Assembly: GCF_021026375.1 (NCBI RefSeq)
Contig: NZ_JAJNDB010000001.1
Coordinates: 1,550,001 to 1,614,000 of the forward strand
Reading direction: 5' to 3'
Source of the DNA: Actinomycetospora endophytica
GTDB lineage: Bacteria > Actinomycetota > Actinomycetes > Mycobacteriales > Pseudonocardiaceae
Length of the DNA: 64,000 bases
A model generated the notes under the pieces. The model saw only the letters and a program-made list of their open reading frames with translations, ran no database searches and was not told the origin of the DNA. Position numbers and translations under genes: made by a program. Shown here one piece after another: positions 49,735 through 53,292 of this stretch. Positions within the stretch are counted from its first letter, which is position 1. Each line of letters begins with the position of its first letter.

Positions 49735-50625
49735 ATGAGCGAGGACACCGGCGGCACGCCGCGCCGGACCGACGGATCCGCGGACGACGCGACGCCGCCG
49801 TCGGGCACCCCGGCCGTCGGTGGCTCCTCCGCGTCCGGGGCGCCCACCGAGCGCACCGCTGAGCCCTGGTGGAACGCGAGCTCCGACGGGGAGACGGCCG
49901 GCGGGTCGACCGGCCGCCACGCCGCGGTGGGGGAGGTCGAGGAGCCCGACTCGACGGACACGACCGGAGAGGCCGCCGCGGGTGCCCCCGACGAGGAGCC
50001 GCGACGCGGCCGGGTCCGCTACCAGGACCCCGAGACCACGACGCCGCGGGAGCCGACCGTCGCCGAGCAGCGCGCGCGGCGGGAGGCCGAGCGCCGGCAG
50101 AAGGCGCAGGAGGAGGCGGCGGCCGCCGCCGCGCAGCGCAAGTCGAAGATCCGCAAGCGGGTGCTCATCGGGGGCGGGGTCGCCGTCGGGGTCGCGGCCG
50201 TCGTCGCCATCGCCTACGCCGCGTCCTCGGGCGGCGGCGACGAGGTCAACGCCCAGTGCACCGACCAGAACGGTGTGGTCGTCGACGACAACTTCTGCTC
50301 GGGCACCCCGACCAACGGGTCGTACCACGGCGGCTTCGTCCCGATCTTCCTCGGCGGGTTCGGCAACCAGTACCACTACAACTACGGCTCGAGCTCGCCC
50401 ATCGGCACCGTCGCGAGCGGCGGATCGACCACGGCACCGCCCAGCGGTACGAGCATCCGCAGCGGCACCTCGGGCAGCAGCCTCGGCTCCACGTCCTCCA
50501 GCGGGACGGTCAGCCGCGGCGGCCTCGGCGTCTCGGGGAGCTCGTCCTCGTCGGGCTCGGGGTCCAAGGGCTCGTCGTCGGGCTCGGGTTCGTCGTCCGG
50601 CTCCGGCTCGTCGTCGGGCAGCTGA
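49735..50625 (+). CDS. YgiB-like membrane protein with Ser/Gly-rich tail
   Basis: A 296-aa protein. A 140-residue acidic disordered cytoplasmic N-terminus ends in a K/R-rich stretch (RRQKAQEEAAAAAAQRKSKI). A transmembrane helix (VLIGGGVAVGVAAVVAIAYA) leads to an outer part with AQCTDQNGVVVDDNFCSGT, a Y/H/G-rich segment, and a S/G/T-rich tail containing TVSRGGLG. That RGG(F/L)G motif and the S-rich end recall E. coli YgiB (DUF1190), whose gene also precedes a GSP-synthase-like gene. ATG with GGGAGTGAGG upstream. Confidence 0.68.
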   Translation: MSEDTGGTPRRTDGSADDATPPSGTPAVGGSSASGAPTERTAEPWWNASSDGETAGGSTGRHAAVGEVEEPDSTDTTGEAAAGAPDEEPRRGRVRYQDPETTTPREPTVAEQRARREAERRQKAQEEAAAAAAQRKSKIRKRVLIGGGVAVGVAAVVAIAYAASSGGGDEVNAQCTDQNGVVVDDNFCSGTPTNGSYHGGFVPIFLGGFGNQYHYNYGSSSPIGTVASGGSTTAPPSGTSIRSGTSGSSLGSTSSSGTVSRGGLGVSGSSSSSGSGSKGSSSGSGSSSGSGSSSGS

Positions 50626-50655
50626 GCAGCACCCCCACCACCCGAGAGGACGCGC

Positions 50656-51822
50656 GTGCGTCGCGAGAGGTCGACCCCCCGCCCCGACTGGCGCCGGAAG
50701 ATCGAGGAGCAGGGGCTCGTCTTCGGCACCCCGGCCGCCGGGCAGAACGGCGCGCGGCCCTACTGGGACGAGTCCGTGCACTACGTGTTCGACATGGCCG
50801 AGATCCTCTCGCTGGAGGCCGACGTCGAGCTGCTGCACTCGATGTGCCTGGAGGCCGTGGACCACGTCGTCACCACCGAGCGGTTCCGCGACTTCGCGCT
50901 GCCGGAGTGGTGCTGGGAGCAGGTGGCGGACTCGTGGAAGCGCCACGACCCGCACCTCTACGGGCGCTTCGACCTGCGCTACGACGGGTCCGGCCCGGCG
51001 AAGCTGCTGGAGTACAACGCGGACACCCCGACGTCGCTGCTCGAGGCCAGCATCTGCCAGTGGTACTGGCTCAAGGACGTCTTTCCCGACCAGGACCAGT
51101 GGAACTCGCTGCACGAGAAGCTGGTGGCGCAGTGGTCCGCGATCGCCGGCGACCTGCCGCGCAGCGAGGTCCACTTCTGCTGGTCGCAGGCCGAGACCAC
51201 CGGTGAGGACCACGTCACCACGGCCTACCTGCAGGAGACCGCCGCCGAGGCCGGGCTGGACACCGTGGGCCTCGCGATCGAGCAGATCGGCTGGGACTCC
51301 GCGCTGGACCGGTTCGTCGACCTCGAGGAGTCGCCGATGAGCTGTGTCTGCAAGCTCTACCCCTGGGAGTGGATCCTCGGCGACGACTTCGGGAAGCACG
51401 TCACCCGCAGCCTCCCGGAGACCCAGTGGGTCGAGCCGCTGTGGAAGACCCTGCTGTCGAACAAGGCGATCCTCGCGGTGCTCTGGGAGATGTACCCCGG
51501 CCACCCGAACCTGCTGCCCGCCTCGCTCGGCGATCCCGGGTTCCTCACCGAGTACGTCCGCAAGCCGCTGCTCGGCCGCGAGGGCGCGAACGTGCAGATC
51601 GTCGCCGGCGCGGGCGAGCCCGTCGTCGAGACCGGCGGCGTCTACGGCGAGGAGGGCTACGTCTACCAGCTCTTCGACCCGCTGCCCGAGTTCGACGGGT
51701 ACCGCCCCGCCCTCGGCGCCTGGATCGTCGGCGACGAGTCCGCCGGGCTCGGCATCCGGGAGACGACCGGTCTGGTCACCGACAACGGCGCCGCGTTCGT
51801 CCCGCACCGCATCCCGGACTGA
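50656..51822 (+). CDS. Glutathionylspermidine-synthase-family ATP-grasp amidoligase
   Basis: A 388-aa ATP-grasp enzyme. RFDLRYDGSGPAKLLEYNAD and DTPTSLLEASICQWYWLKD match the E. coli YgiC/YjfC synthetase domain. Acidic metal ligands and the C-terminal AWIVGDESAGLGIRE complete the active site. It lacks the amidase domain of GspSA. Such stand-alone ligases are predicted to form an amide between a carboxylate (peptide or protein) and an amine such as a polyamine. GTG 50656 with GAGAGGA upstream, 30 bp after the YgiB-like gene. Confidence 0.88.
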   Translation: MRRERSTPRPDWRRKIEEQGLVFGTPAAGQNGARPYWDESVHYVFDMAEILSLEADVELLHSMCLEAVDHVVTTERFRDFALPEWCWEQVADSWKRHDPHLYGRFDLRYDGSGPAKLLEYNADTPTSLLEASICQWYWLKDVFPDQDQWNSLHEKLVAQWSAIAGDLPRSEVHFCWSQAETTGEDHVTTAYLQETAAEAGLDTVGLAIEQIGWDSALDRFVDLEESPMSCVCKLYPWEWILGDDFGKHVTRSLPETQWVEPLWKTLLSNKAILAVLWEMYPGHPNLLPASLGDPGFLTEYVRKPLLGREGANVQIVAGAGEPVVETGGVYGEEGYVYQLFDPLPEFDGYRPALGAWIVGDESAGLGIRETTGLVTDNGAAFVPHRIPD

Positions 51823-51875
51823 TGAGCACCGGACACGAAGCATTCAACGGAGCACGCCGATAGGGGAGCTGGACC

Positions 51876-52757
51876 ATCGGTGCCGCTCGACGGCTGTGGG
51901 CGCTCTACGAGCCGGTCCACGCGCTCACCTACTTCGCCCCGGCCGCGCTCGCGGTGGCGGAACCCCTCGGCGACTCGTTCTGGGCCCGCTACGTCGCCCA
52001 GCGCGCCGCCCCGCTGGAGGACGTCCCGACGGCGGTCGTGGTCGCCGCCTTCGGGGGCTTCGCGCCCGACCGCATCGCCGACGCGCGGGCCGGCATCGCC
52101 CCGGACGCCACCCCGACGACGGCCCTGGAGACCCGGCTGCGCGGGATCGACGCGGCCGTCGCCGAGCTCCCGGGCCTTCCCGACGACGCGGTGGTCACCG
52201 AGGCGGCCGACCTCGCCTGGACCGCGGCGCAGGCGTGCCAGGACGCCGGCCGCGTGCTCGGCGCGGCGAACCGGGCGATGCCCCGGCCGTCGACGCCGCA
52301 CCTGGCCCTCTGGCAGGCGACGACGACCCTGCGCGAGCACCGCGGCGACGGTCACCTCGCCGCGCTGGCGGTGCACGGGATCGGGCCGGTGGCCTCGCAC
52401 GTGCTCAAGGTCGCCGCGGGGGAGTCCCCGGCGCGGGACCTGCGGCTCGGGCGACGGATCGGCGACGAGGCGTGGGACGCGGCGGTGGCCCGGCTGGCCG
52501 ACGACGGCCTGCTGACACCCGGTCACGAGGACGGCGGCCCGACGTTGACGGCGGCGGGCGCGGCCCTGCACCGGGCCGTCGAGGACGCCACCGACCGCGC
52601 GGCCGCCGGGCCGTGGGAGGCGCTGGGCCCCGAGCACACCGACCGGCTGGCGACGCTGCTCGAGCCGATCGCGGCCGCCGCGCGATCGGTGGTCCCGCCG
52701 GTCAACCCGATCGGGCTCCCACCCCGAGAGGACGCTGGTGCACCCGGATCCCGCTGA
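51876..52757 (+). CDS. SCO6745-family helical protein, non-standard start
   Basis: About 293 aa. The conserved N-terminus A-R-R-L-W-A-L-Y-E-P-V-H-A-L-T-Y-F is encoded from 51882, but the frame has no ATG, GTG or TTG before 51954, which would cut that motif off. The only codon with a well-placed Shine-Dalgarno (GGGGAG, 7 nt) is ATC at 51876; CTG at 51894 is another option. A winged-helix-like C-terminal part (EAWDAAVARLADDGLLTPG) follows. Family function unknown. It sits between the GSP-synthase and DUF350 genes. Confidence 0.7.
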   Translation: MGAARRLWALYEPVHALTYFAPAALAVAEPLGDSFWARYVAQRAAPLEDVPTAVVVAAFGGFAPDRIADARAGIAPDATPTTALETRLRGIDAAVAELPGLPDDAVVTEAADLAWTAAQACQDAGRVLGAANRAMPRPSTPHLALWQATTTLREHRGDGHLAALAVHGIGPVASHVLKVAAGESPARDLRLGRRIGDEAWDAAVARLADDGLLTPGHEDGGPTLTAAGAALHRAVEDATDRAAAGPWEALGPEHTDRLATLLEPIAAAARSVVPPVNPIGLPPREDAGAPGSR

Positions 52758-52854
52758 TCCGGGTGCATGAACGTCTCCTCGACGGTCGGGGCAGGCGGGG
52801 GGCCGCTAGGGTGCGGCGTCTCTTTCGTCCGGATGGACCCGCACGGAGGCCTGC

Positions 52855-53292
52855 GTGCTGACGCCCGACTTCTTCCCCACCCTCTTCGGCAACATCGGCC
52901 TGATCGCCCTCTACGCGGTGCTCGGCGCCGTGCTCATGTACGTCGGCTACTTCGCGATCGACCTGACCACGCCCGGTGACCTGCGCGGGCTGGTGCGCGA
53001 GGGCAGGCCCAACGCCGTCGTGGTGTCCGCGTCCGGGCTGGTGTCGATGGCGCTGATCGTGGTGGTCGCGATCTACATCTCCGGGGGCGGGCTGCTCGCG
53101 GGGGTCATCAACACCGCGGTCTACGGCCTGGTCGGGATCCTCGCGCAGGTCCTGGTGGTGCGCGGGCTCGAGGCGGTGTCGCGCCTGGACGTCGGCGCCT
53201 GCCTGCACGACGAGTACTTCACCCCGGTGTCCGCCATGATCGCGGGGATGCACGTGGCGATGGGGCTGGTCGTGGCGGTCGCGATCATCTGA
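52855..53292 (+). CDS. DUF350 membrane protein
   Basis: A 145-aa protein with four transmembrane helices. It holds two related helix pairs: GLIALYAVLGAVLMYVGYFAIDLTTPG, then the repeat-like INTAVYGLVGILAQVLVVRGLE. DUF350 (YjfL) proteins recur beside GSP-synthase-like ligases and YgiB-like proteins. GTG 52855 with GGAGG 7-8 nt upstream. Confidence 0.87.
   Translation: MLTPDFFPTLFGNIGLIALYAVLGAVLMYVGYFAIDLTTPGDLRGLVREGRPNAVVVSASGLVSMALIVVVAIYISGGGLLAGVINTAVYGLVGILAQVLVVRGLEAVSRLDVGACLHDEYFTPVSAMIAGMHVAMGLVVAVAII

Follow-up and report, generated by a model that had tools for sequence, protein, structure and literature searches.

Organization of the locus

The window is a stretch of 64,000 nucleotides of contig NZ_JAJNDB010000001.1 of Actinomycetospora endophytica, and our subject is a set of four genes, all on the + strand, at positions 49735–53292 of it (Table 1). 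In order, these code for a membrane protein (hereafter the partner), an ATP-grasp ligase, a protein of the SCO6745/HTH_67 family and a DUF350 membrane protein; the set is real, and the identities of the ligase and of the DUF350 protein are firm. Judged by its conservation among relatives, the C-terminal tail of the partner is the best candidate for the site modified by the ligase, and we propose, with a probability of roughly 0.6, that the ligase joins a polyamine to the C-terminal carboxylate of the partner and that the polyamine-tipped envelope protein so formed works with DUF350. The clustering is not due to chance, since 17/17 loci of the genus (the window's own included) contain all three of partner, ligase and DUF350, and in 70 of 80 named loci a same-strand DUF350 gene is no more than 3 kb from the ligase. 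A preliminary description of this DNA had placed a membrane protein, a ligase of the GSP_synth class lacking the amidase half and a DUF350 protein together on one strand, and all three were found there; the absence of conservation in relatives that it gave as grounds for dropping the idea was not seen, while the lack of a YgiB-family profile match, part of a second ground that it gave, does hold as phrased.

Table 1. Features of the four-gene set, in window positions
Feature	Position	Strand	Basis or remark
Partner ("client") protein, 296 amino acids	49735..50625	+	Low-complexity N-terminus, single transmembrane span, region with two Cys, Gly/Ser tail
Likely transmembrane span of the partner, basic residues (IRKR...) ahead of it	50149..50229	+	Sequence reading; helix in the AlphaFold model
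Partner tail motif TVSRGGLG	50506..50529	+	Sole part aligning with DUF1190-type proteins (hhalign)
Ser/Gly tail of the partner, 31 residues, ending ...SSSGS	50530..50622	+	Terminal Gly-Ser carboxylate is the proposed acceptor
GSP_synth ATP-grasp ligase, 388 amino acids, YgiC/YjfC type	50656..51822	+	Pfam and PDB matches; residues common to Gss, YgiC and YjfC
SCO6745-family HTH_67 gene	51876..52757 (GTG start 51954)	+	Profile matches; lineage-specific insertion, outside the core
DUF350 membrane protein, 145 amino acids, four long helices	52855..53292	+	Pfam match, structure model

A ligase of the YgiC/YjfC type

The ligase matches the Pfam family GSP_synth (PF03738) over profile positions 1–371 of 371 (E = 4.6e-153) and the PDB entries 7uk8 (YgiC; E = 2.7e-89) and 7uk6 (E = 9.2e-85), and is 41–43% identical to YgiC and YjfC of Escherichia coli; its nearest relatives among the ligases of the 80 named loci are those of Actinomycetospora, at 86–87% identity. 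The fold takes its name from glutathionylspermidine synthetase (Gss), which acts on glutathione, joining spermidine to its C-terminal Gly. Nine residues of the window ligase, R104, D106, E119, N121, E184, K270, K303, R308 and R368, align with R316, D318, E330, N332, E391, K498, K533, R538 and R598 of Gss, which we take to be catalytic, and all nine are kept. Gss also differs from the window ligase, which consists of the synthetase half only (388 as against 619 residues, with no N-terminal amidase half), scores 133.4 against the NCBIfam equivalog for Gss, below its cut-off of 882, and is not expected to use glutathione as its substrate. RefSeq names YgiC and YjfC peptide–spermidine ligases and keeps them separate from Gss, and they are so reported in the title of a study (Pederick 2023) that appears in the reference lists of PMC10948618 and PMC12568646. 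By family membership, the window ligase is thus a candidate peptide–spermidine ligase of the YgiC/YjfC type.

The tail of the partner, and not its body, follows the ligase

The partner has one transmembrane span, two Cys residues (175 and 188) and, after RGGLG, a Ser/Gly tail of 31 residues. The preliminary description had called it YgiB-like and the whole set an actinobacterial version of the ygiBC and yjfLMC systems. No match of the window partner to the Pfam family DUF1190 (PF06693), to which YgiB and YjfM of E. coli do belong by profile, was found at E values up to 1, nor did any of 49 actinobacterial relatives match it at E values up to 0.05 (0/49), in a scan whose full list of 15 families was inspected. 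When the 49 actinobacterial partners were aligned by hhalign with 13 DUF1190-type proteins, only 18 columns were paired, covering a tail of the form TxxRGGFG...G (probability 93.8, E = 1.7e-7). Homology of the whole partner to YgiB is rejected on these grounds; the set stands as a counterpart of the E. coli systems, but its first gene is not, by profile, a DUF1190 homologue. Moreover, it is the tail, not the body, that follows the ligase, because the tail is the only aligned similarity between the two groups. By reading, the window partner has no lipobox Cys, its span being internal and its first Cys being residue 175, whereas YgiB and YjfM carry the lipobox sequences LAGC and LKGC, respectively. 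YgiB ends TRGGFG...SRSMGG and YjfM ends SRGGYG...HWGG, and the tail of the window partner, TVSRGGLG...GS, is a close form of these with GS in place of GG. In one clade of actinobacterial partners the end is ERGGFGTHLASCGG or close to it, reminiscent of the Cys-Gly terminus of glutathione. A second copy of the ligase, in one genome of the order (G128, locus L065), has a partner with a Cys-rich tail ending NCGGS. A scan of the window genome for paralogues of the partner gave a single weak match (E = 2.6e-4), covering model positions 40–106 only. The AlphaFold model of the partner is of low confidence (predicted local distance difference test score, pLDDT, 65.5, with most of the tail under 50), and the tail is probably disordered.

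Partners at 140 genome loci were selected by the motif, a Cys and coding bias, and not by their last residue; RGG[FLIVYA]G is present in 125/139 of them. Among 154 bacterial proteins, which gave 124 unique tails, 119 tails have Gly as the penultimate and Gly, Ser or Ala as the last residue, as compared with a mean of 36.7 when each tail was shuffled (standard deviation 5.0, maximum 55 across 5000 shuffles); after clustering, 49 of 52 tails end in this way, against 13.9 for the shuffles. Every tail tested has at least seven residues beyond the motif; a Bacillus tail (L227), lacking RGG, was dropped as nothing follows its matched motif, and viral, phage and phylum-sample partners stood outside this test. 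For comparison, 4.4% of 1696 other called genes at the same loci end in two Gly or Ser residues. The suggestion in the preliminary description that the Ser/Gly tail could be the modified target is thus strengthened by this comparison, which points to the tail as the best candidate site.

Partner and ligase form a tighter pair than either forms with DUF350

Matches to PF03738 were found in 17/18 genomes of the genus, in 56/150 of the order and in 19/296 of a phylum sample, one of the latter below the curated cut-off. For the order and named sets together, a tail protein adjoins the ligase at 140/140 loci (139 found by script and L094 by eye; a few loci, such as L114 and that of genome G012, are probably the same strain twice), including 80/80 of the named loci. 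At the loci of the phylum sample it was seen in 14 of 15, ten by script and four by eye, the latter with the variant motifs RAGFG, REGFG and, twice, QGGFG. At the 43 further order loci, a DUF350 gene was found nearby in 23. Thus, tail protein and ligase are a tighter pair than their pairing with DUF350.

The pair also occurs on mobile elements. Among 21 plasmid and phage regions, in which plasmid partners were read by eye, 12 of the 15 plasmid and five of the six phage records have a tail protein adjoining the ligase, some with variant motifs such as RQGFG in Rhizobium and SGGFG in an Aeromonas phage. Achromobacter phage Motura (L213, 1303–4896) carries, in this order, an annotated homospermidine synthase, a tail lipoprotein with a DUF1190 score just below the cut-off, the ligase, one gene and DUF350, and appears by its gene content to hold a phage-borne copy of the whole set. 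Among 51 viral contigs, several of them near-copies, a tail protein was found in 45 by script and in one more (L247) by reading; because the script required a terminal Gly, Ser, Ala or Glu, these tails are no test of the end rule. A YjfC-like ligase is present in 135 records of the phage collection, some of which resemble bacterial contigs. Genes for ion channels or ion transporters lie near ligase clusters in Rhizobium, Deinococcus and Pseudarthrobacter records.

DUF350 and the separate assembly of the actinobacterial system

The DUF350 protein of the window (PF03994, E = 1.5e-17; 64.3 bits against a cut-off of 26) is the sole DUF350 match in its genome. Its model is confident (pLDDT 93.4), and fold comparison (Foldseek, VIA) gave only middling, scattered helical matches to solved structures. 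In a DUF350 tree of 61 rows, rooted at the midpoint only, built with every second named ligase-linked row and with long branches that call for caution, the actinobacterial ligase-linked proteins form one supported group (37 rows, support 100/99), which falls among the actinobacterial DUF350s linked to a synthase and far from the ligase-linked DUF350s of E. coli and phages. This placement, together with partner bodies that have no detectable homology, suggests that the ligase systems of actinobacteria and of proteobacteria were assembled independently, each around a ligase family and a tail that the two have in common.

Sister clusters in which the tail ends in Lys

DUF4247 and DUF350 occur in variants of these operons, according to PMC11237479. 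DUF4247 was found in 25/101 genomes of the order and 10/296 of the phylum sample, with no match in the window genome. The genome of Corynebacterium glutamicum, which served as a control, gave matches to DUF4247, DUF350 and spermidine synthase. In each of 20 DUF4247 regions read there is a Gly-rich tail protein that ends in Lys (GK, TK, AK or VK), and 18 of the 20 also hold DUF350 and a spermidine-synthase-like enzyme; of the other two, one has no DUF350 match and one lies on a contig that is too short. Four further DUF4247 proteins, from outside the order, also end in GK. These loci had been found through DUF4247 itself, so that a search starting from the enzyme, a fusion of a major facilitator superfamily (MFS) domain and a spermidine synthase, is the fairer test of the Lys end. 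It gave 18 matches in 17 of 296 genomes: a DUF4247 protein with a Lys tail accompanies 10/10 of the fusions linked to DUF350 (4/4 scored by a laxer Lys-tail rule, which replaced a filter that missed three of four known Lys tails, and six from the regions read) and 0/8 of the fusions without DUF350. By the same laxer rule, no Lys tail was found beside the ligase at any of the 140 loci.

Lys ends are also found on partners outside DUF4247, at three loci (L327–L329) detected by seeking Lys ends after the DUF4247 result: a protein of 78 residues in Ensifer, ending RLGGGPESGK, one of about 510 residues in Alteromonas, ending RNRGPSSGK, and one of 48 residues in Novosphingobium, ending TGPSHK; no Pfam family was matched by the first two. 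At a fusion locus of Gemmatirosa (L326), with half a DUF350, no Lys-tail protein was found. Eight fusion homologues from one other actinobacterial genus, perhaps Streptomyces (L354–L361), share a different neighbourhood, without DUF350 or a Lys-tail protein, and may have another substrate.

In each cluster type the last residue of the tail fits the enzyme, because an aminopropyltransferase needs an amine as acceptor and a ligase needs a carboxylate. We entertain, tentatively and at slightly less than even odds, a code of two chemistries in bacteria and phages, in which the ligase would serve tails ending RGG[FLY]G...G[GSA] and the membrane-bound fusion those ending ...G.GK, the bodies of the partners being interchangeable, the tail defining the substrate and DUF350 being shared.

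The SCO6745 gene is an insertion

The third gene matches the HTH_67/SCO6745 family (E = 1.1e-71 and 1.3e-67). There is no ATG, GTG or TTG between the in-frame stop at 51861 and the GTG at 51954, and N-terminal residues conserved in its relatives are encoded upstream of that GTG; its true start is probably the ATC at 51876, preceded by GGGGAG, or the CTG at 51894, where most relatives have ATG. The window cluster adjoins an Emb (arabinosyltransferase-like) gene, and in two congeners (L057 and L058) such a gene lies between ligase and DUF350, with a second copy past DUF350. An HTH_67 gene is present at the cluster in 8/17 loci of the genus, in 0/43 further loci of the order and in 0/80 named loci. 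Because of this patchy distribution, and of the Emb genes at the same place in congeners, we regard the gap between ligase and DUF350 as a site that takes insertions and reject the earlier proposal that the SCO6745 gene is an extra component of the system; it is a lineage-specific insertion.

Proposed mechanism and alternatives

By analogy with its family, the ligase would use ATP to activate the C-terminal carboxylate of the partner's disordered tail, at a Gly-Ser or Gly-Gly end, as an acyl phosphate, and would couple it to spermidine, or to a polyamine akin to it, through a primary amine, in the way that Gss treats the C-terminal Gly of glutathione; the recognition tag would consist of RGG[FLY]G and seven or more further residues. 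A supply of spermidine is plausible, since an ODC/ADC-like gene and a SpeD-SpeE fusion overlap in the window genome (L112, 1324–3506). The product would be a membrane-anchored envelope protein with a mobile tail tipped by a polycation, which could attach to anionic lipids or polymers of the envelope, or block channels. In the sister clusters, the fusion enzyme would aminopropylate the terminal Lys of the partner and so likewise yield a polyamine-tipped envelope protein. DUF350 would be the membrane partner or effector of the tipped protein, a place that it is given by gene linkage only; envelope stress or the stability of the membrane would be the likeliest purpose. The tail end as substrate, the polyamine as donor, the role of DUF350 and the purpose are all steps that we infer, and the purpose is the least certain of them.

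Several observations weigh against this proposal. The positive-inside rule places the tail outside the membrane and the ligase is inside, so that modification would have to precede completed export, as we assume that it does. The tails are of low complexity, and any end of theirs would look rich in Gly and Ser; since they are related by descent, the shuffle test removes no more than part of this objection. The motif itself varies, with Lys, Ser or Gln variants in 14 of the 139 partners and no RGG in the Bacillus tail, and the ends are not uniform: among the genome-locus tails one ends in Thr and three in Ala, an exceptional Sphingomonas tail ends ...IHA, and four viral tails (L232, L238, L241 and L242) end in Glu (..GGE or ..VGE), where the acceptor carboxylate may be a different one. 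No tail partner was seen beside the plasmid ligases of Photobacterium (on both sides), Azospirillum and Leptolyngbya (3/15), for the ligase of phage DSS3_VP1 (1/6), at locus L206 of the phylum sample (1/15) or on five of the 51 viral contigs. Finally, DUF350 was not found near 20 of the 43 order-level ligases beyond the genus, and must on that account be optional or too divergent.

A different role for the tail would be that of a binding peptide holding the partner to DUF350 or to the ligase, the latter making a small peptide–polyamine product that the partner senses or binds. Gss, a relative, acts on glutathione, the E. coli enzymes are, as far as a title tells, peptide–spermidine ligases, and a Ser/Gly tail is plausible as a linker; yet the conservation of the tail extends through its final two residues, and tails paired with an aminopropyltransferase end in Lys, whereas a mere binding peptide needs no end that matches the chemistry, and we consider this reading unlikely. 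Less probable still is an amine other than spermidine, such as putrescine, cadaverine, agmatine, an amino sugar or a lipid amine, with a product that may anchor the partner to wall or lipid and not form a polycation. The Emb genes, beside the window cluster and within that of the two congeners, would suit it, but the 43 loci of the order outside the genus yielded none next to the ligase; furthermore, the window ligase keeps the acidic residue that matches E391 of Gss, the Motura cassette includes a homospermidine synthase and the sister clusters include an aminopropyltransferase-like enzyme. In actinobacteria of this group, mycothiol is generally considered to take the place of glutathione, which counts against a ligase that acts, like Gss, on a low-molecular-weight thiol or peptide, with neighbours that are merely co-regulated. 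Despite the name given to the fold by Pfam and NCBIfam and the active-site residues common to both enzymes, we hold this last reading to be very improbable, as the amidase half is absent, RefSeq keeps YgiC and YjfC apart from Gss, YgiC is stated in PMC12506659 to be without Gss activity, and the tail would be left unexplained.

Relation to known systems and significance

The known systems closest to the window set include two of E. coli. YgiB-YgiC shares with the window the ligase family, the order of partner then ligase and a partner tail of the form TRGGFG...GG; the body of YgiB is DUF1190 with a lipobox, whereas that of the window partner shows no DUF1190 match and contains two Cys and a single internal span, and no DUF350 gene adjoins ygiBC within the stretch viewed. 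YjfL-YjfM-YjfC also brings together DUF350, a tail protein (SRGGYG...GG) and the ligase, but differs in gene order, in the presence of YjfI, the PspA-like YjfJ and YjfK, which have no counterpart in the window cluster, and in a DUF350 far from the window type in the tree. The clusters of DUF4247, DUF350 and the fusion enzyme have in common with the window a DUF350, an adjoining polyamine-type enzyme and a small envelope protein whose Gly-rich tail is mostly of the RGG type; they differ in having an aminopropyltransferase-like enzyme in place of the ligase and Lys in place of Gly or Ser at the end. With Gss, the window ligase shares the synthetase domain and the aligned residues.

The ligase chemistry of YgiC and YjfC is already known, as is the linkage of DUF350 to polyamine genes (PMC11237479), and the tail rule appears to be new: we did not find it stated in the open-licence PMC literature searched, a body of text outside which the key papers lie, and the same holds for the Lys end of synthase clusters and for partners without homology to one another. 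YgiC/YjfC-type ligases and MFS/spermidine-synthase fusions are widespread in bacteria, and their physiological substrates are not established in the open literature consulted. If true, the two-chemistry code would supply the substrate that is still missing for each of the two enzymes, and a tail end matched to the chemistry makes the question of the substrate answerable by mass spectrometry on one named protein of E. coli K-12 or Corynebacterium glutamicum. Bacterial proteins would then have, in C-terminal polyamination, a new type of modification, one that may be linked to envelope stress and that phages carry too.

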